From contig NVUX02000022.1 in the NCBI GenBank assembly GCA_002402045.2, positions 1 to 64,000 on the forward strand: 64,000 nucleotides of DNA. Direction: 5' to 3'. Each line of letters opens with the position of its first letter. The stretch's first letter is position 1. The translations under genes and the position numbers were made by a program. Under the pieces are notes generated by a model that ran no database searches, was not told the origin of the DNA, and saw only the letters and a list, made by a program, of their open reading frames with translations. Origin of the DNA: Paracoccaceae bacterium. GTDB lineage: Bacteria > Pseudomonadota > Alphaproteobacteria > Rhodobacterales > Rhodobacteraceae. Below are positions 2,354 to 59,204 of this stretch, piece by piece.

Positions 2354-2578
2354 TCACCCAACGGGGCAGGCCTGACCAGACGCTATAGCCCACCTGCGGA
2401 TATCTCGCTTAAAATATTGGAAGCATCTTGAACTACTTGGGGACCACGGTACAGTTAACGTCTTCCCTCCAATCGGCGCTTTTAACTTGCCGTGTTTGCT
2501 GCCCCATTTAAATGACCAACCCAGCTTCACCAATTTCTTAATGGCCATATTGGTCTTGTCACATTTGCAATACCGCAT
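2354..2578 (-). CDS. HicA-like small protein downstream of viperin
   Basis: 74-aa basic protein. The middle (KHGKLKAP..GKTLTVPWSPSS) resembles the HicA/YcfA mRNA-interferase fold, where a His-Gly-Lys element precedes the conserved strand, followed by a helix rich in Arg and Phe. No HicB antitoxin is next to it. Its ATG overlaps the viperin stop by one base (TAATG), so the two are translationally coupled and presumably act together. It could be a dsRBD-fold RNA-binding partner rather than a toxin. The link to viperin comes only from gene order. Confidence 0.6.
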   Translation of the reverse strand: MRYCKCDKTNMAIKKLVKLGWSFKWGSKHGKLKAPIGGKTLTVPWSPSSSRCFQYFKRDIRRWAIASGQACPVG

Positions 2579-3486
2579 TACGCCACCTCACTATAACGGG
2601 CGGCATAGCGCTCTGCGGAAAACCGCATATTCGAAAAAGCTTCGGCCGCCCCGGCATTCAGTATTGGCGGGCTGTATTGATAGCCATTGTTAAGCGTATT
2701 TTCTCCATTCTGGAAAAACCGCCCCATTGGGTCGATCATGATGTAGGATTCAAGCATCTCATCGTTATCTTCAACCCGATAGACATCGTGAAATGCATGG
2801 TGGCGCTCAACAAATGCCTGAAACGCCGCATCACTGACGGCTAGGTTTTGGTTGACCACGGGAAGCATCCTAAGGATTTTCCACTTGTTTGGAGACAATC
2901 CCGAAATCAACCCAGTGAAGTCCTCGTCGACATTAAGCGTGTTAACAACAGTGTTTATTTTTAGCTTCAGGGACGGGTTCTTCTGCATTTCCGCTACGAT
3001 GCCCTCAGACAGCTCGGCTAAATCAAGCAATCCCCCGCGCCGGTCCACACGGCCAATCTCGCGGTTGGCCTGATCATTTGTTGAATCAAGGCTAAGCCCC
3101 AGCCAGCTCATATGGGGTGCTATTTCTCCGAGCAGGCTGGCCGAAAGGCGGCTGCCATTGGTTATCAGTGATGTGTTAAATCCGAATTTCGAAGCAACGC
3201 GGACAAGGTCAGGTATCCGGTCGCTATGAAGGAGCGGCTCGCCCCCAGCAAAGTTCAACCGGACGCTTTTCCACTGCATTTTGTTGAACAAAGGGTTGGC
3301 GGTGTTGCCGGGGCGAAAGAATGCGTAAATCTCGCGGATAAGATCGTGTGAAGCCGCTCTGTCTTTCACAACATCACGGGATCCGCGCTCTTTTGCCCAA
3401 GCTGAATAGCAGTATTTGCAGCCAAAATTACAGGCCTCGGTGAGATGCCAGTTTATAACCAGCTCTGAAACAGAATTCTTGAGCAT
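2578..3486 (-). CDS. prokaryotic viperin (pVip), antiviral radical SAM enzyme
   Basis: Radical SAM enzyme of the viperin family, whose members make 3'-deoxy-3',4'-didehydro nucleotides that stop viral RNA polymerases. The cluster-binding motif CxxxCxxC is at Cys19, Cys23 and Cys26, preceded by INWHLTEAC as in viperins (NYHLTxxC in animals). A GGEP SAM-binding motif lies near residue 85. The segment KINTVVN then NVDEDFTGLI and KWKILRMLPV near residues 180-215 follows the animal pattern KINSVIN...NVEEDM...WKVFQ. The C-terminal ILNAG...AF and SYIMID elements also match. The length (302 aa) suits pVips. The ATG is preceded by a GGAGAG site. It is followed by an overlapping HicA-like gene and faces a divergent 677-aa gene. 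No adjacent nucleotide kinase is seen, so the CTP/GTP/UTP preference is unknown. Confidence 0.87.
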   Translation of the reverse strand: MLKNSVSELVINWHLTEACNFGCKYCYSAWAKERGSRDVVKDRAASHDLIREIYAFFRPGNTANPLFNKMQWKSVRLNFAGGEPLLHSDRIPDLVRVASKFGFNTSLITNGSRLSASLLGEIAPHMSWLGLSLDSTNDQANREIGRVDRRGGLLDLAELSEGIVAEMQKNPSLKLKINTVVNTLNVDEDFTGLISGLSPNKWKILRMLPVVNQNLAVSDAAFQAFVERHHAFHDVYRVEDNDEMLESYIMIDPMGRFFQNGENTLNNGYQYSPPILNAGAAEAFSNMRFSAERYAARYSEVA

Positions 3487-3657: not shown

Positions 3658-5691
3658 ATGGCAACCATTCCCACCCCTGAAGCAATTTTTTATGCGGTTT
3701 ATCAAAGCCTTTGCGGATCTGATTACGGGTCAGTCCCCAAGAAAAAATACACAACGGGCACGGCTGAGCTCAAATCTCAACTCGAAAAAACTGAAGAAAT
3801 CCTTGATGCAGTATTCAGGGCATTAAAGCTGAAAGAAATTGATGATCGGGCAATAGAGGCCGCCAAGTTCAACATTATGAATGCGGCCATGGCGTATAAA
3901 GAGGTTGAGATTAGCACATTCACATTTGAGGCGGGCGCACGCCAAATCATCTGGGATTTGCTCGGCTACCTGTATGTGCCAGGGGTCGCGCGCATTCTGG
4001 CCAATTGGAACCTTGAAGAGCCGATGGACAAAGATATGCCATCTGGCCGCTTTTGGTATTTGCCTGAGGTGGAAGGCACCTCCCTAAAGCTGCCCGTAGC
4101 GCAAGTTGTGGATTGGTACTTGGGCCTGCTGGGCATGCCGCTGGAAAAGTTTGCGGCAGAACGGATGGAGGGGCTGGCTGACGCCGAAGACAACACATCT
4201 GAATCCATGATCCGATCACTCTATAAATGGAAAAAGGGCACGCTGCCGAAAATTGACATCTTGGACGCGTATTTCCCAGATGAAATGGCGATAAAATACA
4301 AAGGCACATTCGAGCTTGATGCGGGCCTTATTGAAGATGAACAATTTGCCAAAGCACTAGAGTTTGTGGCGGCCAAAAGCCTGACGGCAGAAGCCTTGCA
4401 GATGGAGATCAATATCAGCGATCTTTCGCGCATTCAGCAGGTTCTTGATCGCAAGGCCGACAGCAGCGAGCGCTGCAATTTTGTTGATAGGCTCGAATAT
4501 CGCTATGCTGCCCCATCCCCTGCAAGAATTCGCCAACGGTTGCTGCTCGCCCGCATGGTTCAGGACGGGTATACAAGATTGCGGAAATTCCTGCTGCCTG
4601 ACGTCGCAAATGATTGCGCAGACCCGGAAGTGAATAAGCTTTTGCAGCTCATTCAACAATTCAAGCTGATATACAATTTAACCACTGAGGCCTCCATCCT
4701 AAAGGGCCGCTTTGGCGTGGATACCCAGAATACTGAAGACCAGTGGTTTGAGGAACGACTTCAAAAAACAATGCTGGACCCTGAGGTTTTCCTCTCCATT
4801 CTGCCGTCTCAGCGGGACATTGCCAATTTGGAGCTTAGCAAGATTCTGTCGCAACGGTTTCAAAAATCGGTAACGGAAAATCCACTACCAAATCTACTCC
4901 ATAGCGAATCTAAAGACAGCATGGGCAGCTACTTTGGGGGTCTGAAGGAAAAGTATGAAAAGCAGCAAAGCGGGCAAACTCGGTTCGACAAGCTGATCAC
5001 AAACCTAGAAAACGGGAATGTGGCGAAAGCACTGGCTGAAGAAGATCGTTACGATATGCTTTTCGCAGCGGTCAAGCATCAGGGCATGCAACGGTCGACC
5101 TATGACGAAATTTTCCAGCGGATCTTTGAATTGGAGCTTCCCGACTATCAATACATGGATGCATGGTTGTTTCAAACCGAGTGCTTTATGGACGGCAACG
5201 CGCCCAAAAAGATGGTGGATTTGGCGTTCAAAGACGCAAAAGCCCACGCCGGCTATGACATCTGGAAGGGCCCGCTGCTACATCTTGAAGGGAAGCACTT
5301 GGTCAATTGCAATGATTTCAACAGCGCGATTGCGTGCTTTAAAGAGGCCGAAAAGGACTGCCAAAAGCGAAACTATGGCCCCCTAAGAGGGCTAGTCGCT
5401 AGGGACCTGTTTGCCACTGAAATTGCGAATAAAAAGTTAAGCGTCAATAATCAGGAAAAATACTATCGAGATATCATCAATTTTGGCACGCATGGTGATG
5501 CTGAATTGGCCAGCATCGAAGAACTGGCTGCATATCTTTCAGGCTATTTTTGGAACGAGCTTTACCAGCCATATGCGGGTGTGCCGCGTTTGCGACCGCG
5601 CAGCGAGAAAAAAACGCAAGAGCTATTAGGCCTAACTGGCCCGAAGCTGCATATTTGGCTAGGTGAAAGAACGAAGGTAGAACGCATTTAG
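3658..5691 (+). CDS. 677-aa protein of unknown function, TPR-like C-terminus
   Basis: Not recognised. A soluble 677-residue protein with no signal peptide or membrane segment. The N-terminal ~330 residues are mixed alpha-helical (YKWKKGTLPKIDILDAYF near 190). The last ~250 residues are helical with TPR-like spacing, for example HLVNCNDFNSAIACFKEAEKDC near 545-565, so it may act as a protein-interaction scaffold. It is transcribed away from the viperin operon across a 171-bp shared upstream region. It sits between viperin and a resolvase in an otherwise defence-rich island, so a defence-linked or regulatory role is possible. That is inference from position only. Confidence 0.8.
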   Translation: MATIPTPEAIFYAVYQSLCGSDYGSVPKKKYTTGTAELKSQLEKTEEILDAVFRALKLKEIDDRAIEAAKFNIMNAAMAYKEVEISTFTFEAGARQIIWDLLGYLYVPGVARILANWNLEEPMDKDMPSGRFWYLPEVEGTSLKLPVAQVVDWYLGLLGMPLEKFAAERMEGLADAEDNTSESMIRSLYKWKKGTLPKIDILDAYFPDEMAIKYKGTFELDAGLIEDEQFAKALEFVAAKSLTAEALQMEINISDLSRIQQVLDRKADSSERCNFVDRLEYRYAAPSPARIRQRLLLARMVQDGYTRLRKFLLPDVANDCADPEVNKLLQLIQQFKLIYNLTTEASILKGRFGVDTQNTEDQWFEERLQKTMLDPEVFLSILPSQRDIANLELSKILSQRFQKSVTENPLPNLLHSESKDSMGSYFGGLKEKYEKQQSGQTRFDKLITNLENGNVAKALAEEDRYDMLFAAVKHQGMQRSTYDEIFQRIFELELPDYQYMDAWLFQTECFMDGNAPKKMVDLAFKDAKAHAGYDIWKGPLLHLEGKHLVNCNDFNSAIACFKEAEKDCQKRNYGPLRGLVARDLFATEIANKKLSVNNQEKYYRDIINFGTHGDAELASIEELAAYLSGYFWNELYQPYAGVPRLRPRSEKKTQELLGLTGPKLHIWLGERTKVERI

Positions 5692-39390: not shown

Positions 39391-41214
39391 GTGCCCGAAG
39401 TTGCCAATGAATTAGAAAGAGCTCCTAGAGTATCAATGGGAAAAATTAAATCTTCAATATCAGTTCGAGCTGCTAGAGCAACGGGTCGTTCAGCGATTTT
39501 TTTTGCTAAGGTGACCGGAAAAGCAGGATGGGCAGTTGCCAAACCTGTCGGAAGGCTGACCGGCAAACTGGCTGTAAAAGGCGGTCGAGCTATAAAAGAG
39601 CAAGCGAACATAAAACTTGCTGAGTACGAACTCAGGCATGCGGAATATACCCGAGAGAATTTTTATGAAAAGAGCGCAACAACCCTTGAAGACCTTGTCG
39701 ATGCTTTATTAATCGAGAAAAGTGGGACCTCAGCAAGGGTTGTTAGAGCTCTTTCTGTAAAGCTTGGTGCCGCAGGTGCAACAGTTGGAATATTTTCTAT
39801 CGCATCTTTACTTGGGACAGCTAGCACCGGAACAGCAATATCTTCACTCTCTGGTGCGGCCTTTAATAGCGCTGCCTTGGCGTGGATTGGTGGGAGCGTT
39901 GTAACAGGCGGTTGGATTGTTCTGGGTGCTGCCGTAGTAGGTTCAGCAGCGGCTTATTACGGGTCCCGGAAGTTGCTTGGCAAATGGACCGGCAAGCGAC
40001 GTAAGAAAAAAACACTCGATACTCAGGAGAAACAATTTGTTGAAACATGCCTGATGCTGGCGACAGCTTTTAGAGGGCGGGCCGAACAAAATGCCGTGCT
40101 GGATCAAATTACTGCTGAAGCTATGCACCACAACCTATCAAGAGAACTAATCCAACAGTTTGATGTCTGCTTCGCCAAAGTGGCAGACTGGCCAAGCATT
40201 CCACTCAACCGGCTTGAAAACTGCAAAGTAAAACTGGAGCAACTATTAGAAGCTTTGAAAGAGGCAAATGATAAAACTTCTGCGGTGCAAAAAGGGTCGA
40301 TAGCGAGCGGCCCCATTCGGACAGGTGTTGTTTCCGCTACCGTTATGAAATTGATGACATCAGACCTGCCTTCATTCAGCGACGATGAGCAGTTAGTTTT
40401 GCAAGCCTTACGAAGGTCTAACAATAGCCTTGCCGATGCAAGTGACCTTGACCTGTCAACATACGTGCAATCAATATCAGTCGAGCAAATTGCAGGACTA
40501 AAGAACAACGTGAAGGACATCATTCTGACAGGTGTTATCTCCGCCACTATTATGAAAGTGATGGCATCAGACCTGCCTTCATTTAGCGACGATGAGCAAT
40601 TGGTTTTGCAGGCCTTACGAAGGTCTAAAAATAGCCTGGCCGATGCAAGTGACCTTGATCTGTCAAAATACGTACAATCACTATCAGTCGAGCAAATTGC
40701 AGGATTAAAGAACAACGTGAAGGGCATTTACCATGAGCTTGCGTTCCAGCGCCGTGAGAACCTTGATGGTGACGAGTATATCGTAGAGCTGTTCGACGAT
40801 ACGAACCACGCGGGGGCGGATATCCGTATCATTAATGTAGAGACAGGCGAGGTTTCCGAGGTTCAACTCAAAGCGACTAATTACGCATCGTATGTACGAG
40901 AACATAATGAGAAGTACGAAAATATAGAAGTCCTTACAACTAGCGAAGTCGCATCCGCATCTTCGGAATGGTCTTCGTCGGAGTTCAGTAACGAAGGTTT
41001 GACAGCTGATACAGCTGCAACTCTAAATATACTCGATCAGGGTGCTGACGCCAACATTGCAGAAAGTATGGGAGTTGCCGCGATGGTGACACTTGCTGCC
41101 AATGCGAAATCGATGTTGAAAGGGGAAGCTTTTTCGACAGAAGCCAAACAAAAGATAATTCAAGACGGTGTTGTTGCAGCAAGTGTTGCAGGTTTGGTTC
41201 AGCTTATTCTTTAA
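39391..41214 (+). CDS. membrane protein with predicted PD-(D/E)XK domain and internal duplication
   Basis: 607-aa protein. Basic N-terminus, then two glycine/alanine-rich membrane segments (~130-160 and ~170-195: VGIFSIASLLGTAS, WIVLGAAVVGSAAAYY). Residues 311-379 and 380-448 are a near-perfect tandem duplication (DLPSFSDDEQLVLQALRRS, LADASDLDLS, VEQIAGLKNN). A C-terminal region follows with GADIRIINVETGEVSEVQLKAT, a D...E-x-Q-x-K pattern of PD-(D/E)XK nucleases, and a third hydrophobic tail. GTG start at 39391; an ATG at 39436 is possible. A membrane-anchored nuclease effector is a reasonable reading, not proven. Confidence 0.7.
   Translation: MPEVANELERAPRVSMGKIKSSISVRAARATGRSAIFFAKVTGKAGWAVAKPVGRLTGKLAVKGGRAIKEQANIKLAEYELRHAEYTRENFYEKSATTLEDLVDALLIEKSGTSARVVRALSVKLGAAGATVGIFSIASLLGTASTGTAISSLSGAAFNSAALAWIGGSVVTGGWIVLGAAVVGSAAAYYGSRKLLGKWTGKRRKKKTLDTQEKQFVETCLMLATAFRGRAEQNAVLDQITAEAMHHNLSRELIQQFDVCFAKVADWPSIPLNRLENCKVKLEQLLEALKEANDKTSAVQKGSIASGPIRTGVVSATVMKLMTSDLPSFSDDEQLVLQALRRSNNSLADASDLDLSTYVQSISVEQIAGLKNNVKDIILTGVISATIMKVMASDLPSFSDDEQLVLQALRRSKNSLADASDLDLSKYVQSLSVEQIAGLKNNVKGIYHELAFQRRENLDGDEYIVELFDDTNHAGADIRIINVETGEVSEVQLKATNYASYVREHNEKYENIEVLTTSEVASASSEWSSSEFSNEGLTADTAATLNILDQGADANIAESMGVAAMVTLAANAKSMLKGEAFSTEAKQKIIQDGVVAASVAGLVQLIL
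40321..40734 (+). repeat. tandem 207-bp duplication inside the membrane-nuclease gene
   Basis: Two in-frame units of 207 bp (69 codons each), 40321-40527 and 40528-40734, with only a few differing codons. The high identity, including silent positions, points to a recent duplication that kept the frame. Confidence 0.85.
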
Positions 41215-41344: not shown

Positions 41345-41677
41345 AATTCCCGCGCGGTGCGGGAATTAAAGTTATAATTGACACCTCGCCCGGCGCTTCG
41401 CTCTGGCTTTGGTGGCGACATTCTTTTTAATGGCCCTTCGGGCGTTGCTAAGAACCCGCTGGGTTCTCGCGCCCGCAAGGATAATAGACAGGGCCGTGTG
41501 GTCGACTGCGCCGCCTGCCCGCACCCATTCCCCGTCGATTTCCCTTGCAGTTGCTACCTCCGGCACTTCGCCAGTGGATCAGATTTTAGAGACGAGCGCG
41601 CTAAAGCGCTTCGCTTAAAATCAGACTTAAATTGGGGAAAAAGCCTCAAAAGTCACACCACAAAAGGAGTGCCACAA
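41345..41677 (+). promoter_or_regulatory. structured leader, copy 2 of 4 (before ardC)
   Basis: Closest to copy 1 (long stretches identical), ending at the ardC ATG. The end hairpin is AATTCCCGC (41345-41353)/GCGGGAATT (41359-41367), perfect, where copies 3 and 4 pair GATC..CCG with CGG.GATC. Next are GCCCTTCGGGC, GAACCC (41452-41457)/GGGTTC (41461-41466), GCAAGGATAAT with its partial complement, and the terminal stem GATTTTA (41582-41588)/TAAAATC (41616-41622). The pairing is kept while the bases differ from copies 3 and 4, which supports a selected fold. Confidence 0.77.
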
Positions 41678-42556
41678 ATGGCCAAATTTGATGTTTATCA
41701 GGAAATCACCAACCAAATAATTGATGCAATGGAGGGTGGAACACCGCCTTGGCGCAAGCCGTGGACAGGTGATAGCTCGGGTTTTGTATTTCCAAAACGT
41801 GCCAACGGCGAAGGCTATAAAGGTATCAATGTTCTGATGCTTTGGATGATGGCCGAGAAACGGGGTTACACCTCTGAAAATTGGTTCACCTATCGCCAAG
41901 CAAAGGAAGCTGGCGGACAGGTTTGCAAAGGTGAGAAATCAACAACTATTATTTATTACAACACCGTGAAAGCTGAGAATGAGCAAGGCGAGGAAAAGAC
42001 CATTCCTTTTGCCAAGGCATACCGCGTGTTTAACGCTGAGCAGATCGAGGGTTTGGCAGATGAATTTTACCAGAAACCAGCGGAGCCGCGCGACCTTGGA
42101 ACGAAAGCAGACCCCGAGCTAGAAGCTTTTTTTGCGTCTATCGGGGCAAAGATCGTGACCAGCGACAAACCACAGGCTTACTTTTCACCCTCAGAAGACA
42201 TTATCCACATGCCGCCGATTGAAACTTTTCATTCCGCGAATGGATATTATTCCACTCTTGCCCATGAATCGATTCATTTTTCAGGCGTTGAAAAGCGTCT
42301 TGGCCGTTATGGAAAATATTCTAATAAGCAAGAGTATGCGGCGGAAGAAATTGTCGCGGAAATTGGTTCCACTATGCTTTGCGCCCAGCTTGGCCTAACC
42401 CCAGAGTTTGACCAAAGCGCCGCTTACATCGAGGGATGGCTAAAAGCGTTGAAAGACGACAAGCGCTTTATTTTCAAAGCCGCCAGTGCCGCCCAAAAAG
42501 CTACCGATTATTTGCTGGAAGCTGCAAACCCTGCCCAGATCAAGGAAGCCGCGTAA
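41678..42556 (+). CDS. ardC: ArdC-type antirestriction protein
   Basis: 292-aa ArdC homologue. The N-terminal ssDNA-binding domain (EITNQIIDAMEGGTPPWRKPW, then GYKGINVLML, NWFTYRQAKEAGGQVCKGEKSTTIIYY) precedes a zinc-metalloprotease-like domain with HESIHFSG (H-E-x-x-H) and EEIVAEIGSTML. ArdC proteins bind incoming single-stranded DNA and protect it from restriction. The ATG is set by GGAG at 41666 and by the shared leader context. Its position behind a structured leader in the presumed leading region fits expression right after entry into a recipient. Confidence 0.93.
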   Translation: MAKFDVYQEITNQIIDAMEGGTPPWRKPWTGDSSGFVFPKRANGEGYKGINVLMLWMMAEKRGYTSENWFTYRQAKEAGGQVCKGEKSTTIIYYNTVKAENEQGEEKTIPFAKAYRVFNAEQIEGLADEFYQKPAEPRDLGTKADPELEAFFASIGAKIVTSDKPQAYFSPSEDIIHMPPIETFHSANGYYSTLAHESIHFSGVEKRLGRYGKYSNKQEYAAEEIVAEIGSTMLCAQLGLTPEFDQSAAYIEGWLKALKDDKRFIFKAASAAQKATDYLLEAANPAQIKEAA

Positions 42557-47603: not shown

Positions 47604-47933
47604 GATCCCCGCAAGGCGGAGATCTACATATTTGAGCGGGCACCCGGACCGCCGCTTCGCTTTGGTCAGGATGACGATGTTTTATTTTTTAGGCCCATTC
47701 GGGCGTTTCTAAGGGGCTTCGCCCACTCGCGCCCGCAAGGATAATAGAACAGGGCCGTGTCCTCGCTGCGCTGCGGGCCGCACCAAAACCCTGTCGATTA
47801 TCCTTGCACTTGCTACCCCCACTCTCGCCGAGGGGCAGAGTTTCAGATGAGCGCGCAAAAGCGCTTTTCAGAAACTTACAGCCCATTAAGGGGAATAATC
47901 CTCAAGGGAAGCACCACATTGAAGGAAGTTACC
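47604..47933 (+). promoter_or_regulatory. structured leader, copy 4 of 4 (before parB-like gene)
   Basis: Nearly identical to copy 3. GATC..CCGC/GCGG.GATC end hairpin, GGGC (47714-47717)/GCCC (47721-47724), the long stem GCAAGGATAAT (47735-47745)/ATTATCCTTGC (47797-47807), which is fully complementary in this copy (9-10 of 11 pairs in the others), and the terminal stem AGTTTC (47839-47844)/GAAACT (47871-47876). The last ~20 bases, with GAAGGAAG, differ from the other copies and supply the ribosome site. Confidence 0.77.
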
Positions 47934-49772
47934 ATGACTAAACATTCCAAAATCACCGCCATTGAAACACCAGTAATTGGGTATTTTGATCTCGCTGATT
48001 TATATCTATCTGATTTGAACCCGCGCCAAGATGTTGACGATGCTGATATTGATCTTCTGGCCCAGAGCATTGTCGCTTGTGGCCTTATTCAAAACCTTTC
48101 CGGCCTCATGGACGAAAACGGCAAGGTTGGCATTGTGGCAGGTGGTCGTCGTCTTCGCGCGTTGCAAATCGCTGTGCATGAAGAACCAAATCTTTCTCAA
48201 GTGCCTGTTAAGCTGGCTGTTGATGCTCATATGGCAGAAACATGGGCCAATGTTGAAAACTCGGTTCGTGTTGATCTTCACCCAGCCGATGAAATCCGTG
48301 CTTTTGGTAAGATGTTTGACAAAAGCCTTGGTGTGCCGCGCATTGCAAAGGTTTTTGGGGTAACTGAAAAGCATGTTTATCGCCGCCTTGCGCTGGTCAA
48401 CCTGCCCTCCCCTGTTTTGGATGCTCTGAAATCCGGTGAGATCAATATGACCATGGCGGCGTCATTCACGGTTTGCGATGATGAAAAGCTATCCTTGGAA
48501 GTGTTGGAGCGAGTGCGGGGTGATTCCCATTCGGCACACCAAATGAAAAACATGCTAAAGCCTTCGGCTGTGAGCGGTTCAGATCGCAAAGCGGTGTTTG
48601 TTGGCGCTGGCGATTACAAAGCGGCTGGTGGTATCGTGGGCGGGGATTTGTTCTCCGATCAGATCACTTTTGATAGCCCTGACATTTTGGAGGAAATATT
48701 TCAATCCAAGCTGGCAAAGGTTGCGGCTGATCTTTGCAAGGAACAGGGTTGGAAATGGGCGGAGACCATCGAGTCCAGCCATATTGGTTATTGGGAAATT
48801 GAACAGGGCGGATATGAGCGGTTTTATCCGGTTGAGGGCGCTTTGGCAGAAGATCAGACCAAACGTTTTGAAGAATTGTCCGGCTTGGATGATGAAGGCG
48901 ACCTTGATAAAGATGGTGAAACCGAACTTGCTTTGATGCAAACCACTATTGATGGGGATTATACGACCAAACAAAAGGCCCATGGCGGGATAATTGTTAA
49001 TGTTTCGCATAGTGGTGAGGTTTCTATTTCTGGTGGGCTGGTGAAGCGCGAGGACAAGAAGGCAGCGATTGAAGCGGGTGTATTGGCCAAATCTAATCAC
49101 CAAAGCAGTGATAAGCCAAAGTCTGACTATTCCCAAAAGCTCATTGATGATCTCAAAGCTATCAAGCTGGGGGCGCGGCAGAATGCAATGGTCAATAAAG
49201 CAGATATGATGCTCGATCTTTTGGCTTTCCAACTTTCTGGGAATACGGGGTATCGTCGTATTTTTGAAATGCGGTTTGATCATCCACGTAATCAGCCTGA
49301 TACCGAAACCGGCTTTTGTTTGGATGCCCGTTTAACAGAGCCAAACGATGTGCCTAAGGATAACTGGAACTCCGACTTGGAAAAGACCTTTTCGGAATTT
49401 CAGGCCAAGGGTAAAAAGCATAGGAATGCAGAAATTGCCCGTCATCTTGCAGCTTTGCTTTCTGGTGGTGATGAAGCATTTTCTGCGGTGCTGGATGAAG
49501 CTTCTGGTGCAAATATCCGTAGCGTTTGGACGCCCACAGCCGAGAATTTCTTTAAGCGGGTAAATGGTGCATATCTTGAAGCCTTGCACCTCACCATGCT
49601 TGATTTAAAGGCGGACCATAAAGATGCGAAAGCGTTTACCAAGCTGAAAAAAGGTGAGAAAGCCGTTTTCCTTGAAACTATCTTTGGTGATGAAGATACG
49701 AGAAATGCGCTTGGTTTGGATGACGATCAAAAAGCACGGATTGATGCTTGGTTGCCTGACTATTTTGGGTAA
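47934..49772 (+). CDS. ParB/Spo0J-family protein
   Basis: 612-aa ParB-like protein. The N-terminal ParB/sulfiredoxin-type domain shows YLSDLNPRQDVDDADIDLLAQSIVACGLIQNLSG then VAGGRRLRALQ (the GGRR nucleotide-binding motif) and ENSVRVDLHPADEIRAFGKM. A HTH follows (RIAKVFGVTEKHVYRRLALVNLP). The long C-terminus (~350 aa) is acidic and not recognised. ParA is not adjacent. Large ParB-like proteins of this form lie in the leading regions of conjugative plasmids, where some act as nucleases or counter host defence; a partition role is less likely here. The ATG follows GAAGGAAG. Confidence 0.86.
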   Translation: MTKHSKITAIETPVIGYFDLADLYLSDLNPRQDVDDADIDLLAQSIVACGLIQNLSGLMDENGKVGIVAGGRRLRALQIAVHEEPNLSQVPVKLAVDAHMAETWANVENSVRVDLHPADEIRAFGKMFDKSLGVPRIAKVFGVTEKHVYRRLALVNLPSPVLDALKSGEINMTMAASFTVCDDEKLSLEVLERVRGDSHSAHQMKNMLKPSAVSGSDRKAVFVGAGDYKAAGGIVGGDLFSDQITFDSPDILEEIFQSKLAKVAADLCKEQGWKWAETIESSHIGYWEIEQGGYERFYPVEGALAEDQTKRFEELSGLDDEGDLDKDGETELALMQTTIDGDYTTKQKAHGGIIVNVSHSGEVSISGGLVKREDKKAAIEAGVLAKSNHQSSDKPKSDYSQKLIDDLKAIKLGARQNAMVNKADMMLDLLAFQLSGNTGYRRIFEMRFDHPRNQPDTETGFCLDARLTEPNDVPKDNWNSDLEKTFSEFQAKGKKHRNAEIARHLAALLSGGDEAFSAVLDEASGANIRSVWTPTAENFFKRVNGAYLEALHLTMLDLKADHKDAKAFTKLKKGEKAVFLETIFGDEDTRNALGLDDDQKARIDAWLPDYFG

Positions 49773-50118: not shown

Positions 50119-50147
50119 GCCCCGGCCTTATTGGTCGGGGCTTTTTT
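50119..50147 (+). terminator. strong rho-independent terminator
   Basis: GCCCCGGCC (50119-50127) pairs with GGTCGGGGC (50133-50141), followed by TTTTTT. It ends the rightward leading-region transcripts and lies at the 3' end of the leftward luxR solo. Confidence 0.9.
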
Positions 50148-50856
50148 ATGGCAGAATCAGTAATTTGGATTGCGCTATAGATACAGCATGTACCAGATTC
50201 AGTGCTCTGAGTTTATGCCGTGAGGTATCAATATATACGCGGAGAGTATGCTCGGAAATTTGCAATTTTTCAGCCACGCTGGCTCTGCTTAAGCCTCGTG
50301 CTAACCAAGTTAAAACATCAACCTCTCGCATGGATAGTTTTGTGTAAATGTCTTCTTCTTGACGACACATTAGCTCGTTTGCTTTTTGATGGATATGGTG
50401 GGAAATGAGCAGCATGTCCCTTTGGTTTTCTTTTACGAATTTGGCCCATGATGCATCATTATCTTCATTGTTAATTGTAAATAGGGCGAACTGTCCGTTA
50501 CGACCCCTAATTGGCATTGATAAGCCCTGGTTGCCGACACCAGCATTTATGGCTTCTCCCAGAAATGCTGTTGAACCTCGTGAACTCCAATCAAGTTTAT
50601 TCCAGTCCAATGGATGAAATTGTTGGGTTGCGCGTTTTACTACAGGGTCAACTCGAATAAATTTTTGCCCTTGATACTGCTGCATCCAATCTTCGGTATA
50701 GGTAAGAGCTGCAAATGGTTGGTCATCAAGATTTAGCGCATGGTAGACAACATTAGAGACACTATATGTGCTTTGAAGTGCTTCAATCATACTTTGAATA
50801 TCGGTTGGAGTTTTAACGTGTTCGAGTTGGCCTATAAAGGCTTCCATCCTGGACAT
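50146..50856 (-). CDS. LuxR-type regulator (solo, no adjacent luxI)
   Basis: 236-aa AHL-receptor-type regulator. The ligand-domain spacing is complete: Trp then Tyr four residues on (EDWMQQYQG), Asp-Pro (RVDPVV) and a second Trp 28 residues after the first (PLDW). The C-terminal GerE HTH is LSMREVDVLTWLARGLSRASVAEKL. The ATG at 50856 has GGGA seven bases upstream; the frame extends 27 codons further without similarity. It is a candidate link between the luxI signal at 26.9 kb and the transfer genes nearby. Confidence 0.9.
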   Translation of the reverse strand: MSRMEAFIGQLEHVKTPTDIQSMIEALQSTYSVSNVVYHALNLDDQPFAALTYTEDWMQQYQGQKFIRVDPVVKRATQQFHPLDWNKLDWSSRGSTAFLGEAINAGVGNQGLSMPIRGRNGQFALFTINNEDNDASWAKFVKENQRDMLLISHHIHQKANELMCRQEEDIYTKLSMREVDVLTWLARGLSRASVAEKLQISEHTLRVYIDTSRHKLRALNLVHAVSIAQSKLLILP

Positions 50857-50952
50857 AATATTTCCCGTGATAATATATTCAGGTCTATATATTACACTTT
50901 TACGTGATAAATATACTCCCCTAAAATAGCGAGCCATTTATGGGGAGGTTAT

Positions 50953-52592: not shown

Positions 52593-52612
52593 TTGTAATA
52601 TCCTTTTGTTGC

Positions 52613-52682
52613 GTTCAGCGTTCAGCGTTCAGCGTTCAGCGTTCAGCGTTCAGCGTTCAGCGTTCAGCGTTCAGCGTTCAGC
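52613..52682. repeat. ten tandem GTTCAGC heptamers
   Basis: Ten perfect copies of the 7-bp unit GTTCAGC in a row, 20 bp upstream of the virC1-like GTG. Tandem short repeats at this place are typical of centromere or relaxosome-accessory binding sites (overdrive-like, iteron-like). Confidence 0.95.
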
Positions 52683-52740
52683 GTGACGTTTATATTATGC
52701 CTTATCTTTTATGTTTTATCTCTTGTCAAGTATGGCGTAT

Positions 52741-52781
52741 CACTTATCACTTATCACTTATCACTTATCACTTATCACTTA
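52741..52781. repeat. five and a half tandem CACTTAT heptamers
   Basis: Five perfect copies and one partial copy of CACTTAT, 58 bp after the GTTCAGC array. The same 7-bp period with a different sequence suggests two binding arrays for two proteins or two orientations. Confidence 0.93.
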
Positions 52782-52995
52782 AGTCTGTTCTATTGGTTGT
52801 TTCCGAATTACCCATAGGAAAATCGTCTTGAATGGAAATAGGGAGGCTAGTCGACCTGCGTATATATGCTTTTAAGCTCATTGAGCGACCCGTGAGCCGC
52901 CATCTTGTGATTTTATGCCCCACTATAGCCGCCAAGCACAGCAGGAGGCTTAAGGGGCTTCTGTGTGTTTCCGGCTAGGCGCTTACTGGAATCGA

Positions 52996-53021
52996 GTTAT
53001 CGGATCATTTTATCCGATAAC
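52996..53021. repeat. perfect 10-bp hairpin in the candidate oriT
   Basis: GTTATCGGAT (52996-53005), a 6-base loop, ATCCGATAAC (53012-53021). Compact and AT/GC mixed, like the inverted repeat recognised by MobF relaxases beside the nick. Confidence 0.8.
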
Positions 53022-53214
53022 AAGTTTCTTGATGTAATTAATAATCGACCTTTTAGGTCTCATAAAGGTCCACACGCTACGCAGCTCGACAATCGAGGTG
53101 CAAACAAGAGGTTTTCGCCATATTTATATGGCGGAAATAGAAAGAAAACTGAAAAATTATACGGAAGGTAGAATTGCCGTTATTTTATTGACTAATATAA
53201 CGGCAATTTTCCAT

Positions 53215-53267
53215 TTGGACGTAAATGGACGTAGATATTTCCATGATTGGACGTAAATGGACGTAGA
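53215..53267. repeat. two 21-bp direct repeats at 32-bp spacing
   Basis: TTGGACGTAAATGGACGTAG occurs at 53215-53234 and 53247-53266. Each unit itself contains two GGACGTA elements. Spacing of three helical turns suggests cooperative protein binding. Confidence 0.85.
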
Positions 53268-53302
53268 CTTAACCCTACTAAACAAATCTGTTGATGCAAA
53301 AT

Positions 53303-53335
53303 AAAAGGCTTCCGCCCTACAGGAAGAAGCCTTTT
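53303..53335. terminator. bidirectional terminator at the end of the traI operon
   Basis: AAAAGGCTTC (53303-53312) and GAAGCCTTTT (53326-53335) form a perfect stem with A/T runs on both sides. It lies 50 bp after the last gene of the leftward traD-traI operon. Confidence 0.85.
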
Positions 53336-53386
53336 ATACAATATTAAGGAATACTTAAGCCTGGCCAGATAACAAGCGAGGTATGT

Positions 53387-53842
53387 TTATTCCCGCTCTA
53401 TATCTTGATCTTTTCTCGACTGTTGATCTTCAATGGATTGTCTTCGCTGTGTTTCTTCGATCTTTTCTTGAAGCTTTTTTAAGGCTGGATGGTCCAAATC
53501 AGAATCTTCAGCGGCCTCAAGCTGTGTTTTGTTTATGCGGTTATTCATCATTTCCAACATAATCTCTACTTCATCGGAAGTGCCGGCCGAGAGCGCTTGT
53601 ATCATATATCGCATTGATATGAGTGTTTCATTCATCAACTGAAGTTGATCTTTAACCCATAATGGAATTTTTTCGGCTGAGGGTTTTGGCTTCAATAGAT
53701 TAAATATTCCCGCCTCAAGGTGATGTGCTGTCACTTTTTTACCACCAGAAACGCTTTCTGCAATCTCGTAAGCTTTTGGACCGAGCCTTATTCTCGGGAG
53801 TGACTTATCATCCATAACTTCTGGATATTGGTTGTCGCTCAT
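53387..53842 (-). CDS. small accessory protein of the traD-traI operon
   Basis: 151-aa acidic helical protein, not recognised by name. The N-terminus contains RIRLGPKAYEIAESVSGGKKVTAHHLEAGIFNLLKPK, possibly a short DNA-binding fold. The second half is a predicted coiled coil (MNNRINKTQLEAAEDSD, LKKLQEKIEETQRRQS). Its ATG overlaps the relaxase stop by four bases. The position suggests a relaxosome or transfer accessory factor; that is inference. Confidence 0.68.
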   Translation of the reverse strand: MSDNQYPEVMDDKSLPRIRLGPKAYEIAESVSGGKKVTAHHLEAGIFNLLKPKPSAEKIPLWVKDQLQLMNETLISMRYMIQALSAGTSDEVEIMLEMMNNRINKTQLEAAEDSDLDHPALKKLQEKIEETQRRQSIEDQQSRKDQDIERE

Positions 53843-56772
53843 CGTTCATAGTCTCCCAGCTGTTTTTGAGCTAATTTTTGAAGCTCTTCAATTTCGTCTT
53901 TCAGGCTGTATTTTACACCATCCTGGTTTTCAGTGTCTTTTTGGGTAGGTTCTTCATTATCTTTATTGTCCTTACCGCGATCATTATTATCATCAACCTT
54001 TTGATGAAGGCGGTCTTTTTCAGCTTCAACATAAGCTTCCAGAGCGTTGATCTTTTCCCCAGTCTGAGCCTCCAGTCGGTTAGCCAGTTTTTCAGGATCA
54101 TCAGTGATAAGTGTGATTTCATCGCGAGCACGCGATGCCGCTACGTAAAAGCTCTTTTGATTTGCAAGCTGTTCGTTGGCCGTCATTGCAATTATGATTT
54201 TATCAACTGTGGCTCCCTGGAAGTCATGGGTGGTGAGGGCATACGCATGATCAAGACCAGCAGCCGCTAGTGATCCGCGCTGGATCTCGATGTGACTGTC
54301 ATCTGATTTTTGGAATTCAATGGTTTTGTCATTAATTGATGTGATTTTGGCTGTTTCGCCACTATCGATATTTTCTTTTGGATCATTAATTCTGAATTTC
54401 ACATCGTCACCGATGGCAAATTCTCTGGATTTTCGTTCGTATAGCTCTATTGAACCAGCGGCCTTACTATTCTGAGTGTGGGAGAAGGGCAGGGTGGTTC
54501 CAGTCTCACGATCCTTCAGTATTACTTGTTTTTCCTCATAACGAACCTCAATAACATCATAAATCCTTCCCTTGACCAAACCAGCGCTTTTAACAGCCTG
54601 AAAAGGTATAACCACATTTCCAGGCTCGAACGAGTTTGTTTCAGCGGCTTCAACTCGGCTAAGTCTCATCGGTGACAATGTGTTAACTCTATGGTCGTTT
54701 CCGGTTAACTGGCCTTCATCCCGTAGACCGAGCCTAACATGCTCGTTGATTGCCTCGCGAACACGGTTGGTAGGCGTTACAAGACCGACTGTTTCCCGTT
54801 TTTGGGCAGGAACGGATAAATATTTGTGAGCTGCCGCTTCAGCAATATCTTCTGCCTTAATAATCCCCCGACCAATTTTGTTGAAGGCTTCTTGAACTTC
54901 ACCTGCAATAGCATGTTTGACAACAGCTAAGGTATTACCATCCCTTTGCCTTTGAATATCATCCATGACAGCGGTGCGCATCCCAATTTTCTGCAATAGA
55001 TCAAAAGGTGTACCTGCGGAAACGGCGTCAAGTTGTTGAACATCTCCTACAAGGACAACTCGCGCAATTTTCTGGTCATTGGCCTGTTGCAGAAGAGCTT
55101 TCATCTGCGTTGTCGAAATCATGGAGGCTTCATCCACAATCAATATTGTTTTTTTAGGGTCTGCTTCTTTGTCGGCTGATTTCTGCCTTAATAGTCTTGC
55201 TTGAAGCGTTTCTGAAGAGGGTAGGGCGTCTATCAGCTCTGATACTGCCTTTTTGCTGGGTGCAAGCCCCTCAACCTTATAACCGGCCCTGTTAGCCTCC
55301 TTGGCGAGGTGGGCCATCATGAAAGTCTTCCCTGTTCCAGCGTAACCCTGGACTCCAACAAACTGACCTTTACCTGTCAGGCTGGTTACGACAGCGGCTT
55401 TCTGACCATCCGACAGAGTTGTGTATTCCAGCCGTTTGGTCAAAGACGTTTCTGGCTTTCGATCTATCCAACTATTTGATTGGGTATATCCTTTTAGTAA
55501 TACTCCTGGTGTTCTGGCTCCGGTTCTAAATGATCGGGTCATTTCCCGTTCGTTTGCGAGCGTTGTTTTGTCGGTCAGAATTTCGGTTTTTTTATTTCCA
55601 TCCATTATGGGGATTAAGGTACCATCCTGCTTAGCTTCGGTGATGGCGTGATTGATCGCTATTACATCGGCCTTTTCGGAAAATGCTAAAGCTGTAGTTA
55701 GGAGATCATTTTCAGAGTACGAAGTATTACGCTCAGAAATGTGTGCAATCGACTTTGCTAGGGAATCCCGCGCATCTTGAAGGTATGGGGCAGGGGGGCT
55801 ACCAGCTCGTGTAACGCCAGGGATGCGCATTGCAGCTCGTTGCAATGTAGCTGTTCGCACTTCCTTCATTTTTTCTATGTCTATGTTGAGGTCTTTGGCT
55901 TCTTTTAACCATCCCTTTTGAAGCTCATCCCGATCAACGTTTCCATTTTTTACAGCTCTAGTGGCAAGAGCGGCAAGCTCGGCAGTTCTAGGATTATCTT
56001 TCATTCCGCGTCCAGCCATTGCCGCTTCCATCTCAGAACGTCGTTTCGAGAAATTATCCACCAACTCTCTTGGTATTTCTCTTAATTCGACAAGCCGTTC
56101 TTTCCCAACACGATCCACTGTATAACCAGCTTCAATCGCCCCGCGAGCGAGTTCGTTTCTATAGATTTCTGACCCTAATTTCTGGGTTCTGAAAATCAGA
56201 TCATTATGAAGTGCTGTTGTATTTCCGGTCGAGTTCTCAACCATGTTAGCAATAACTGCGTGTGTGTGGAGTTGGGGATCTAAGGCGCGCGACGTATCAT
56301 GCCTAAAGAGGCCAGCGACTATTTTGCCGCCAGTTTCCACTTCCAAGCGGCCATTTTTATAAAGCCTGGTTTGAATAATTTTTTTTTCTACATATTCCAT
56401 CGCTTTAATTACAGCCTGATCGTGTGCCTTGATTAATCGTTCATCCTGATAAACCAACGCTGCAATGGATACCGATTTCGGAGCTGAAAATGTAAGATCG
56501 AAGCCGGGGCGATGTTGTCGTTCTCCATCAATGATTTTACCCATAAGCTTATCAGGTTCAGGGCCATCTTTACCCGGCTTGAAGGAAACGCCCTCAAGCA
56601 TCTGGGTGAACAGTGCGTCATCCACTCTACCCTGTAATCCCAATGCTTCCGCTTTTTCCCCGAACCAAGTTGCAGCCGCGTCTCCTTCTTCGGAGCCAGC
56701 AGCATAATATCCCTCTGTTTTATAATAGCCGGAAGATGCCGCTCCGGCACTGACTGGGCTGATAGACATCAT
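53839..56772 (-). CDS. traI: MobF-family conjugative relaxase/helicase
   Basis: 977-aa TrwC/TraI-type relaxase. The N-terminal tyrosines Tyr16, Tyr17, Tyr22 and Tyr23 and the three-His metal site His158, His169, His171 (RHDTSRALDPQLHTH) define MobF. The helicase part has Walker A GYAGTGKTFMMAHL (~475), IVDEASMIST (Walker B), VGDVQQLDAV and the late motif YVAASRARDEITLI. The last ~80 residues are charged. It nicks oriT, stays bound to the 5' end of the transferred strand and unwinds the plasmid. Its ATG overlaps the coupling-protein stop by four bases. Shorter than F TraI (1756 aa), like TrwC (966 aa). Confidence 0.96.
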   Translation of the reverse strand: MMSISPVSAGAASSGYYKTEGYYAAGSEEGDAAATWFGEKAEALGLQGRVDDALFTQMLEGVSFKPGKDGPEPDKLMGKIIDGERQHRPGFDLTFSAPKSVSIAALVYQDERLIKAHDQAVIKAMEYVEKKIIQTRLYKNGRLEVETGGKIVAGLFRHDTSRALDPQLHTHAVIANMVENSTGNTTALHNDLIFRTQKLGSEIYRNELARGAIEAGYTVDRVGKERLVELREIPRELVDNFSKRRSEMEAAMAGRGMKDNPRTAELAALATRAVKNGNVDRDELQKGWLKEAKDLNIDIEKMKEVRTATLQRAAMRIPGVTRAGSPPAPYLQDARDSLAKSIAHISERNTSYSENDLLTTALAFSEKADVIAINHAITEAKQDGTLIPIMDGNKKTEILTDKTTLANEREMTRSFRTGARTPGVLLKGYTQSNSWIDRKPETSLTKRLEYTTLSDGQKAAVVTSLTGKGQFVGVQGYAGTGKTFMMAHLAKEANRAGYKVEGLAPSKKAVSELIDALPSSETLQARLLRQKSADKEADPKKTILIVDEASMISTTQMKALLQQANDQKIARVVLVGDVQQLDAVSAGTPFDLLQKIGMRTAVMDDIQRQRDGNTLAVVKHAIAGEVQEAFNKIGRGIIKAEDIAEAAAHKYLSVPAQKRETVGLVTPTNRVREAINEHVRLGLRDEGQLTGNDHRVNTLSPMRLSRVEAAETNSFEPGNVVIPFQAVKSAGLVKGRIYDVIEVRYEEKQVILKDRETGTTLPFSHTQNSKAAGSIELYERKSREFAIGDDVKFRINDPKENIDSGETAKITSINDKTIEFQKSDDSHIEIQRGSLAAAGLDHAYALTTHDFQGATVDKIIIAMTANEQLANQKSFYVAASRARDEITLITDDPEKLANRLEAQTGEKINALEAYVEAEKDRLHQKVDDNNDRGKDNKDNEEPTQKDTENQDGVKYSLKDEIEELQKLAQKQLGDYER

Positions 56773-59063
56773 TGGGCTTGGTCTCCCACAATATCCATAA
56801 TTTCAGTTGTCTTTGACCAAGCGGTTTTGGCTTTGTGGATTTCCTCAACAGGAGCACTTCTAATTAACGCGCGCTTCCGTCTACCTGATTTCTCATTTGC
56901 GTCAGTATCGTCATTTTCTGAAATATTTTCTGCTTTGTCGCAGCTCCCATTCTCTTCAACATTTTCGCTCAATTCACTTTTACCGTGAGGTTTATCTGAA
57001 TTAACCAACGGAAGGATTTGCGTCTCGTTCTCATTTGACCCCATCATTGGAACCGATGGGGCAGGGGGGCCGATTTCATTCGCTCTTTGGCCTAGCTTTC
57101 GTTTTTCCGAGAAGTGGTCCCAAAGAACAGTATCCATACCTTGCCCTGGAGCAAATATTTCCATACCGCTGTTGACGATGCGAGAGCGCCATTCTTCAAA
57201 CTCTGCTTTTTGCTGTTCTTTGGTTAGCCCATTGAATGAGGAGGGCGCAGGTTTGCCCCCTTCCTCAATAATTTCTTTTTCGGTGGCGGCGTTCATACTG
57301 CCTTTGGCAAATTTCCCTCCATGGTATGGAATGAATTTTGGAGCCATCACCTCTCTGTTCACCGGCTTGAACTTGATAAACGCAGCGGGCGCATCATAAG
57401 CAAATCTCACATAACCTTGAAACTGTGGAAGCGATTGTATCTGCGATGCTGTTACAATCGGTCGCTCGGTGCGCTGCGACATGAAACTAACACCGTCGCG
57501 CGTTTCATGTGCGCCAACACTAATGTTCTCACGGCGCTCATCTACATCTTCAGAGCCTAACGATTTTGAAAATAATTCCGCCGTTCTAGCATCTGGAGTA
57601 TTGAAGATAATGCGGTTGTTTAGGTTGCCAACGATGGTCTGTGCTGACTTTTCGCCATAAATATCTTCGAGTTGAGAATACACCTGATAGCCAACAACAA
57701 ATGCACCACCAAACTGTCTGATTTCAGCTAGACTTCGATCTAGGAAAGGCATTCGGTTTAGGGTCGGTACTTCATCCATCAAAAACCAGATTTTAGGGTC
57801 ATTGCTTTCTTCGCAAGTCATCAGAGCATTGGCACCCACTTCAAAAATTGTTGATATTATGTTTCTGGTCGCGGCTGCGTGTTCGGAATCACCAGTTAGG
57901 AATACAAACCCATTTTTGGCGGTTTTTACCCAATCCCGTATTGAAAATGGTTCTCCATCATCATGTAAGAATTCGAGAAAGCGCAACTCAGCAATCAAAT
58001 TGGCTCGAATAGAACCTGCCGTTTTTGCAATTTCTTGGTTGAGAAAATGCCGCCCCGGCGTGTTCTCAATCATTGCAGCTAACTCTTCGCCAGGAATTAA
58101 AAGAATAGCGTCACGTAATTTTGCGTTTGAATAATCACCACTCGCCAATAGTTTTTGTGCTGCATAGTCAAAAACAATACGAGCTGCCTGTGTCCAGAAC
58201 GGATCATTGCTTCCTGGTCGGTCTGGTATCATCACTTCCGCAATCTGTGTGAAAAATTCCGGCCGCTCTGCTTCATAAAAGGGAGACCAGGCGTGTGATC
58301 TATCATCAAAAGGATTTATAATGATGTCGGTTTCAGGGTCATAATAATCGCGAACCAATGCTCCCATTCTGTCATAGATAATAGCTCGTCCATCGTTATC
58401 TCGAATGACATTAAGTAATTCCTTAAGGCAGGTTGTTTTACCCGTACCGACTGTCCCGCATATGGCCGTTTGTGCCTCAACTGCGTTCGGAGGAAACCTT
58501 ATTCCCGCAATCGTGTATTCGGGTCCTTTTTTAAAATCCTTCCCGAATTGTTTTTTGTAAGCTTTCCATTTGAAATCTACCCAACGTTTTAGCTCTTTCG
58601 CGGTTACTAGCTTTGTTCCCCGAATATGCTCGTCGCCGTCAAGTTTGCTGCCAGATATATAAAATACAATTCCCGCTATAAGCGCCGCAAAGCCGGCGGG
58701 AATGAAAGACCAGTAAGCAAACTCATATGCTTTTGCTAAGTACTGTTCTGAAATGTCTTGAATGAACTGGTTTTGATAGATTGCGGCGGCAGTATCCTCT
58801 ACCCATCCATTTTCCGGATCTTTGTATCTAATTAGTTTATCGGGCTGGCCACGGTTTTCTACGAAAAACGAAGCCAGCCAATTTGCCCATGTTAAGTGGA
58901 TATTCTCTACTTTGTAGTAGGTAAAACACAGTCCGACATAAGCTATAAAGAAGAACAAAGCAGCAAAGGATATAGCTGATTTGATAACTTGAGCGGCCAT
59001 TCTCAGCCAATGTTGTGTAGTCTGTCCGCCACGAATGAAGTTATCGGATACTGATTTTCTCAT
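56769..59063 (-). CDS. traD: TraD/VirD4-type coupling protein
   Basis: 764-aa membrane ATPase that connects relaxosome and secretion channel. Two N-terminal membrane helices (ISFAALFFFIAYVGLCF near 35, FIPAGFAALIAGIVFYIS near 115), Walker A CGTVGTGKTTCLKEL (~205), Walker B WFLMDEVPTLNR (~430) and FVVGYQVYSQLEDIYG typical of the TraD/TrwB group. The C-terminal ~150 residues are polar and likely contact the relaxosome. The start at 59063 follows GGTGAAG; the frame runs 39 codons further without similarity. First gene of the traD-traI operon. Confidence 0.94.
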   Translation of the reverse strand: MRKSVSDNFIRGGQTTQHWLRMAAQVIKSAISFAALFFFIAYVGLCFTYYKVENIHLTWANWLASFFVENRGQPDKLIRYKDPENGWVEDTAAAIYQNQFIQDISEQYLAKAYEFAYWSFIPAGFAALIAGIVFYISGSKLDGDEHIRGTKLVTAKELKRWVDFKWKAYKKQFGKDFKKGPEYTIAGIRFPPNAVEAQTAICGTVGTGKTTCLKELLNVIRDNDGRAIIYDRMGALVRDYYDPETDIIINPFDDRSHAWSPFYEAERPEFFTQIAEVMIPDRPGSNDPFWTQAARIVFDYAAQKLLASGDYSNAKLRDAILLIPGEELAAMIENTPGRHFLNQEIAKTAGSIRANLIAELRFLEFLHDDGEPFSIRDWVKTAKNGFVFLTGDSEHAAATRNIISTIFEVGANALMTCEESNDPKIWFLMDEVPTLNRMPFLDRSLAEIRQFGGAFVVGYQVYSQLEDIYGEKSAQTIVGNLNNRIIFNTPDARTAELFSKSLGSEDVDERRENISVGAHETRDGVSFMSQRTERPIVTASQIQSLPQFQGYVRFAYDAPAAFIKFKPVNREVMAPKFIPYHGGKFAKGSMNAATEKEIIEEGGKPAPSSFNGLTKEQQKAEFEEWRSRIVNSGMEIFAPGQGMDTVLWDHFSEKRKLGQRANEIGPPAPSVPMMGSNENETQILPLVNSDKPHGKSELSENVEENGSCDKAENISENDDTDANEKSGRRKRALIRSAPVEEIHKAKTAWSKTTEIMDIVGDQAQ

Positions 59064-59204
59064 ATCTTCACCATATTTGTTTCCATAATGCAGATATTTT
59101 CTAGCATTAACTAATATAGAAACATAGAATAATAATAGTTGCCTTTGTCCGTTATAGAAGAGATTATACAGTATGCACAAAGCAATCTATTACGGAGTTA
59201 CCCA

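Follow-up and report, generated by a model that had tools for sequence, protein, structure and literature searches.

A seven-base-pair repeat ladder between a predicted F-like nick site and a virC1-like gene in a Rhodobacterales contig

Introduction

VirC1 and VirC2 of the Ti plasmids are well-known partition-type proteins that are used to start DNA transfer. Their genes are arranged in the order virC1 then virC2, and the VirC2 fold is of the ribbon-helix-helix (RHH) type, with two RHH motifs in a single chain. On plasmid pSM19035, omega dimers stack on the parS site. The conjugative plasmid R388 is a MobF plasmid.

In the sections of PMC9499535 drawn on here, the omega heptad of pSM19035 is given as WATCACW, one omega dimer pairs with one 7-bp unit, and full activation of the ParA ATPase needs at least four contiguous units. 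According to the part of PMC3098194 used, R388 has a ParA/VirC1-like gene in the stbABC operon beside oriT, on the side that enters the recipient first, with direct repeats at the operon promoter. For plasmid F, the text available from PMC5422253 gives nic as GCGTGGGGTGT/GGTGC and places 27 nt with an inverted repeat on its 5' side.

Here we analyze the window, a stretch of 64,000 nucleotides from a Paracoccaceae bacterium (contig NVUX02000022.1), whose intergenic DNA at 52593-53386 had been proposed as a candidate oriT or centromere (the original prediction). Sequence comparison shows that its minus strand has an F-like nick motif (53072/53071) and that a single ladder of 25 heptads, which surrounds a conserved -35-like box, lies between this site and the start of virC1. 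A ParA-type ATPase with a DNA-binding partner and a repeat array near oriT is an arrangement of an already known kind; the form described here appears to be new.

Results

Genes around the intergenic region

Read on the minus strand, the direction of virC1, the region starts with a TraD-type coupling protein (56769-59180) and a MobF relaxase-helicase of the TrwC/TraI type (53839-56772), both recognized by Pfam and NCBIfam profiles, followed by a gene for a 151-aa protein (53387-53842). Next come a terminator-like hairpin (53337-53301), 21-bp direct repeats (53267-53215), a 12-bp hairpin (53208-53172), the predicted nic (53072/53071), a 10-bp hairpin (53021-52996), the heptad ladder (52784-52603), virC1 (52592-51876) and a partner gene (51876-51301). 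The VirC1-like gene and the MobF operon named in the original prediction were both found, the latter with a TrwC/MobF relaxase and a TraD-type coupling protein; the partner, a second gene behind virC1 in the same operon, was absent from it.

The 238-aa product of virC1 is a ParA-type ATPase that scores 93.3 bits against the Pfam VirC1 family (PF07015, E 1.9e-26), well over the gathering cut-off of 24, and matches the NCBIfam VirC1 model at E 2.4e-27. Its 95.8 bits against the equivalog NF010423 fall below the curated cut-off of 313, and we therefore call it VirC1-like and not a VirC1 equivalog. The VirC1 models of both databases score above ParA models on this protein. Among viral contigs, 72 pattern matches for it included no relative.

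A TraG-like gene is found on the 72-kb contig as well, and so is one end of a TraH gene, the other end being on contig C117. These calls have NCBIfam scores under the curated cut-offs and Pfam TraH matches above theirs; we therefore assign the region to an F-type conjugative element. The 151-aa protein has 37% identity over 131 aa to a protein in the same place in Maritalea and may be a relaxosome accessory protein. It gave no significant family in Pfam, PHROGs or NCBIfam, and its single-sequence fold was discarded at a mean pLDDT of 62. At gathering scores Rfam had no match in the window, and the intergenic DNA had none in PLSDB (blastn, distant mode).

A predicted F-like nick site

The minus strand contains GCGTAGCGTGT/GGACC at 53082-53072|53071, a motif that went unmentioned in the original prediction and that matches the nic of F; cleavage is predicted between 53072 and 53071 (GCGTAGCGTGT/G, feature 53071-53082). 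The pattern GCGTNNNGTGTG, defined from the window, Maritalea and F before any counting, occurs once in the window (53082-53071, minus), where 0.27 matches are expected and 23 of 100 window shuffles contain at least one. We compared nine MobF records: the window, Maritalea, two Cereibacter, Gemmobacter, Leisingera, Tritonibacter, G163 and F. The motif is found exactly once in eight of them, the window and F included, and is absent from the 11-kb G163 stretch. In the seven alphaproteobacterial records that have it, it lies after the small gene behind mobF, on the strand of the relaxase gene. Six such plasmids besides the window thus have the motif where the relaxase operon ends, the sites of the two Cereibacter plasmids being near-copies. 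Four records (Maritalea, both Cereibacter and Leisingera) have it within the beginning of an annotated ORF, whose annotated start may be wrong. Most 14-mers common to the intergenic region and three MobF plasmids are at chance level, except in the nic region. Across 295 genomes of the family, a MobF search at E 1e-150 or better returned one relative besides the window's own (G163, 57%), a genome that does not appear in the list of those with a VirC1-like match.

On the 5' side of nic, on the same strand, we read by eye an imperfect inverted repeat at 53081-53101 (GCA-C-CTCGA-TTG-TCGAG-C-TGC, eight pairs and one mismatch), which by analogy with F may be the relaxase-recognition hairpin. As in F, a GCGTNNNGTGT/G core follows an inverted repeat and the transfer genes lie 5' of nic on the cleaved strand. 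In F, however, the transfer genes are transcribed away from nic, whereas the relaxase operon of the window runs towards it; and in the 4.5-kb F stretch neither an annotated ParA/VirC gene nor a 7-bp ladder is present (best z7 4.1), whereas the window has both. A nick motif like that of F at a conserved position makes it very probable that the region is an oriT. The original idea of an oriT/centromere gains support from this and from a centromere-like array that adjoins the VirC1-like gene. Cleavage at the predicted nic would send the ladder and the virC genes into the recipient first, and the predicted site marks out a candidate oriT in a group of MobF plasmids from alphaproteobacteria.

The smaller repeats reported for this DNA were recovered as well. 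The perfect 10-bp hairpin at 52996-53021, between nic and ladder, is terminator-like on the plus strand; as a nick hairpin it was rejected, since the nick motif is elsewhere and the hairpin suggested by the F oriT is the imperfect one at 53081-53101. The AT-rich hairpin and the 12-bp inverted repeat correspond to two 12-bp inverted repeats, an AT-rich one (53172-53208) between nic and the 21-bp repeats, and one after the relaxase operon (53301-53337) that is terminator-like on the minus strand. The 21-bp direct repeats (53215-53235 and 53247-53267, 32 bp from start to start) amount to four TGGACGTA at spacings of 10, 22 and 10, and are possibly accessory-protein sites on the transfer-gene side of nic.

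The locus resembles stbABC of R388 in having a ParA/VirC1-like gene in an operon beside oriT, with direct repeats at its promoter, on the side entering the recipient first. It departs from that system, as far as the portion of PMC3098194 used describes it, in several respects: the stbDRs are 9-bp units with 2-bp spacers in two sets of five, and the window has 7-bp units without spacer; the stb and MOB operons of R388 diverge, and the virC and relaxase operons of the window run in the same direction; and stbA precedes stbB, whereas the DNA-binding gene of the window, predicted to be of the RHH type, follows virC1.

One heptad ladder upstream of virC1

Listed in register, the DNA upstream of virC1 is a continuous ladder of 25 units of 7 bp on the minus strand (52603-52777), with a partial edge unit to 52784. 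It contains two homogeneous runs. The downstream one (52611-52684; GAACGCT on the VirC1 strand, GTTCAGC on the plus strand) lies between the -35-like box and the start codon; Tandem Repeats Finder gives it as 10.6 copies of GCGTTCA with 100% matches, in agreement with the ten perfect GTTCAGC units noted earlier. The upstream one (TGATAAG on the VirC1 strand) had been described as five and a half CACTTAT units; the run is real and slightly longer, 6.3 copies of TATCACT with 100% matches at 52738-52781. Between the runs is a degenerate linker (52680-52742) of nine in-register heptads: TGATACG CCATACT TGACAAG AGATAAA ACATAAA AGATAAG GCATAAT ATAAACG TCACGCT.

The original prediction took the runs for unrelated arrays that bind two different proteins, and the homogeneous units do differ at six of seven positions when aligned in register. 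We consider this reading very unlikely. The runs fall in a single 7-bp register: counted from the start of virC1, the core A is at -183 in one and at -92 in the other, a distance of 91 = 13x7. What TGATAAG and GAACGCT have in common is the A at position 3 followed by the Y-R class. The intermediate units of the linker are of the same core: all nine have A at position 3 and eight have R-Y-R at positions 3-5, against 0-3 of nine in the other six registers, and none of 200,000 linker shuffles reached R-Y-R in eight units. Over the whole ladder the core on the VirC1 strand is N-N-A-Y-R-N-N, and R-Y-R fits 23 of the 25 units (misfits ATAAACG and ACAAAAG). Related loci, moreover, have a single long ladder with many unit variants. 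The two arrays form one array.

Within the 3.79-Mb genome the 14-mer GTTCAGCGTTCAGC has nine overlapping matches, all of them inside the array, and tandem pairs of WATCACW were counted five times in the window, always within the array (0.00 expected). The likeness to pSM19035 delta/omega/parS, as described in part of PMC9499535, extends to a ParA-type ATPase, a predicted RHH protein and contiguous 7-bp units whose array overlaps the promoters of its own genes. TATCACT fits WATCACW, and the gap-free units of the window go well past the minimum of four of a pSM19035-type parS. Unlike parS, which mixes orientations, each homogeneous run has all its units in one orientation, the same for both runs. 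Further differences are a unit core that changes from locus to locus, a predicted RHH protein with both motifs in a single chain, and a position beside oriT.

The ladder across related loci

In a scan that took one genome from each GTDB species, the VirC1-like protein had relatives at 135 loci; the best 80 of 135, three plasmids and the window make up the 84 loci compared here. In all 84 the strongest period between 4 and 13 bp directly upstream of virC1 (500 bp; 183 bp in L039) is 7, with z from 10.4 to 27.4; in control windows from the same loci z7 never exceeded 10 (0 of 249; maximum 6.9). The loci are related and not independent, forming about 24 clusters at 90% VirC1 identity. Clade 1 comprises L035-L058, the three plasmids and the window, and clade 2 the 56 loci L059-L114. 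Clade 1 cores are mostly NNACANN, with exceptions such as A-T in L050, L052, L053 and L057. R-C-R was rejected as a universal core on account of these four, and our claim is accordingly a common 7-bp period with a locus-specific core. In clade 2 the longest stretch over which one G stays fixed in register spans 22-57 units per locus (median 30.5); across 2,036 units, C or T precedes this G in 94% and follows it in 80%. By these comparisons the position of the ladder is conserved and its sequence is not.

Perfect tandem units could come from slippage, and tandem repeats of a Rep-binding site are what iterons are. A neutral slippage repeat or replication-origin iterons seem to us extremely unlikely explanations nonetheless: the ladder is followed by a virC1-like gene in 84 of 84 loci and by its partner in 83 of 84, not by a Rep gene, and slippage alone would not maintain the one G that is kept over 22-57 consecutive heptads in the 56 loci of clade 2.

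The linker of the window includes CTTGAC (52725-52730, minus strand), which we propose as the -35-like box of the virC operon. Within 250 bp upstream of virC1, CTTGAC is present on the strand of the gene in 71 of the 84 loci (best 80 of 135, three plasmids and the window) and on the opposite strand in one. This conserved hexamer is our ground for placing the virC promoter in the linker, where a scan with the sigma-70 consensus reported no promoter. The linker may have escaped homogenization because it is both ladder and promoter. Since the ladder surrounds the box and ends about 20 bp before the start codon, it might be a mere operator for autoregulation of the virC operon. This we hold to be quite improbable, as ladders reach 57 units, or about 400 bp, seemingly far beyond the needs of an operator, and in the clade 2 loci shown nearly the whole ladder is upstream of the CTTGAC box.

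MOBP relaxase genes are encoded upstream in 77 of the 83 relatives (best 80 of 135 and three plasmids), a finding that favours a role in transfer; among the six without a MOBP match, four have less than 1.1 kb of upstream sequence, and L053 and L068 have 6 kb. The ladder could instead be the centromere (parS) of a ParA/RHH partition system that lies beside oriT by chance and serves segregation, not transfer. Its ParA-type ATPase, RHH protein and heptad array have the anatomy of pSM19035 delta/omega, in the part of PMC9499535 used, and the upstream run fits WATCACW in tandem; but we judge this unlikely, given the relaxase genes beside the cassette in those 77 relatives, the higher scores of the Pfam and NCBIfam VirC1 models over ParA models, and the case of R388 StbB, also next to oriT, which the relevant part of PMC3098194 reports to be needed for transfer and not for stability.

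In the upstream DNA searched (6-9 kb at most), no MobF match turned up for any of the 83 relatives, and the combination of a 7-bp ladder with MobF is therefore a single case, that of the window. More distant VirC1-like genes on two MobF plasmids, of Maritalea and Cereibacter, have ladders of 8 bp instead of 7, which suggests that the step length may be set by the protein. Five generic ParA genes (L122-L126) have no adjoining relaxase in the stretches shown; L122, L123 and L124 lack a strong 7-bp period, and L125 and L126 have short 8- or 4-bp repeats near the promoter. A Roseinatronobacter plasmid (L127, about 3770-3900) has a 4/8-bp ladder of GTGC, GTGG and GTGT units, not 7 bp, at a virC1-like gene that adjoins mobC and a gene with an LPD7 domain in the relaxase position. 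In a Cereibacter sphaeroides plasmid (L033, 11300-11555) the annotated ParA start is inside an 8-bp ladder, such that the first ~85 residues are translated repeats, probably an annotation error.

We found no description of heptad ladders at VirC1-like genes in the literature searched, which excluded most subscription journals; the main texts of three papers on Rhodobacterales plasmids (PMC5613091, PMC9025767 and PMC4886583) contain neither "virC" nor "oriT". The ladder could serve as an easy marker of transfer regions in Rhodobacterales.

A VirC2-like partner

The partner gene follows virC1 in 83 of the 84 loci (best 80 of 135, three plasmids and the window), the exception, L075, being a contig edge. 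Its 191-aa product had no significant family in Pfam, PHROGs or NCBIfam, a PDB profile search with its alignment gave nothing significant, and VirC2 was not among the Pfam matches of the 30 aligned members. An AlphaFold prediction from these 30 sequences (pTM 0.61) shows a basic N-terminus, a linker and beta-alpha-alpha twice, at 76-117 (E76-83, H87-98, H103-117) and 139-190 (E139-146, H147-157, H165-190). Block means of pLDDT are 92-98 from residue 81, and the N-terminal 70 residues are of low confidence. Foldseek ranked VirC2 of pTiC58 (2rh3) first at E 0.022 and probability 0.97, with no match at 0.001 or below. VIA-align also placed it first with a modest score (Z 5.1, 102 residues, 4.8 A), tied under the rule of the tool with 3ueb (Z 4.9) and a DndE (Z 4.2). 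F relaxosome chains came lower down in both lists.

The partner is thus predicted, from its modelled fold, to be a tandem RHH protein like VirC2, with two RHH motifs in one chain, and the virC1-virC2 order of Ti plasmids agrees with this assignment. A VirC2-like protein, guessed at in the original prediction, is accordingly predicted to exist. The locus shares with the Ti system a VirC1-family ATPase above the Pfam cut-off, the gene order, the place beside the transfer origin and a partner whose first-ranked solved match is VirC2. It differs in that its relaxase is MobF and not VirD2, the partner has no Pfam VirC2 match, and a 25-unit 7-bp ladder stands in the place of overdrive.

If the two RHH beta-strands read the unit, strand residues should change with it. 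We compared heptad profiles with strand residues over 24 loci, to which the set was reduced at 90% VirC1 identity once L055, L075 and any locus with less than 150 bp upstream had been removed. The two distances had a correlation of 0.64, and given VirC1 distance the partial Mantel r was 0.28 (permutation P 0.0005). Random sets of 18 columns averaged 0.01, and 0.4% of them reached 0.28. Within clade 1 alone (16 loci) r was 0.19, matched or exceeded by 7% of random column sets. Sliding windows of nine columns peaked at starts 5-8 (0.26-0.29) and 76 (0.29, strand 1), with a lesser peak at 136 (0.17, strand 2); they range from -0.28 to 0.29, and the drop to -0.28 at residue 94 shows that single windows are noisy. 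Overall, the data are suggestive of co-variation between the heptads and the predicted DNA-reading strands, weakly so within clade 1.

Proposed mechanism

The reading that we favour, with moderate confidence, is that of an oriT which belongs to an F-type (MobF) conjugative element and is flanked on the leading side by a VirC1/VirC2-like cassette. In this reading the ladder would be bound by the VirC2-like protein and driven by the VirC1-like ATPase, as a transfer enhancer that also positions the relaxosome and regulates the operon. Mechanistic precedents are found in parts of PMC9499535, PMC4949242 and PMC3098194.

The VirC2-like protein probably coats the ladder. Each monomer would read one heptad through its beta-strands, and two non-identical RHH halves per monomer would account for units that all have one direction. 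Neighbouring molecules would stack along the ladder into a filament, which would repress the virC promoter within the ladder and would recruit and stimulate the VirC1-like ATPase next to nic. The ATPase would in turn place the relaxosome at the coupling protein and the secretion channel, and transfer would start at nic, with ladder and virC genes the first to enter the recipient. The system may possibly contribute to plasmid segregation.

On a broader proposal our opinion is evenly balanced: that such ladders are a general and apparently undescribed oriT element, of contiguous heptads (22-57 without phase slip in one clade) with as little as one bp in seven fixed, coated by a filament of a tandem-RHH VirC2 homologue, and that ladder, virC1 and virC2 would make up a mobile cassette shared among elements with unrelated relaxases (MOBP, MobF). 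A fixed-step ladder with natural variants and a cognate predicted DNA-binding protein makes DNA reading by VirC2-type proteins, and the handover to the ATPase, directly testable.

Other genes in the window

A 671-aa ParB-like protein (47757-49772, plus strand), 1.5 kb from the virC operon, may belong to a separate partition system; it has an HTH_ParB domain, a ParB_N match just under the Pfam cut-off and a match to a PRTRC-type ParB model at E 3e-13. About 360 bp after the virC operon is a LuxR-type regulator with an autoinducer-binding domain (50146-50937, minus), which hints at quorum control of transfer. The gene for an ArdC-type antirestriction protein (41378-42556, plus) is some 10.5 kb away from nic, on the side that would be the first to reach the recipient. 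A 207-bp unit is tandemly duplicated (90% matches) at 40314-40727, within an ORF at 39391-41214. Finally, a prokaryotic viperin gene (2578-3486, minus; NCBIfam NF038283, E 7.8e-101) is present on the contig, together with MmeI-type and GmrSD-type restriction genes, a Schlafen AlbA_2 protein and an ABC-3C system.
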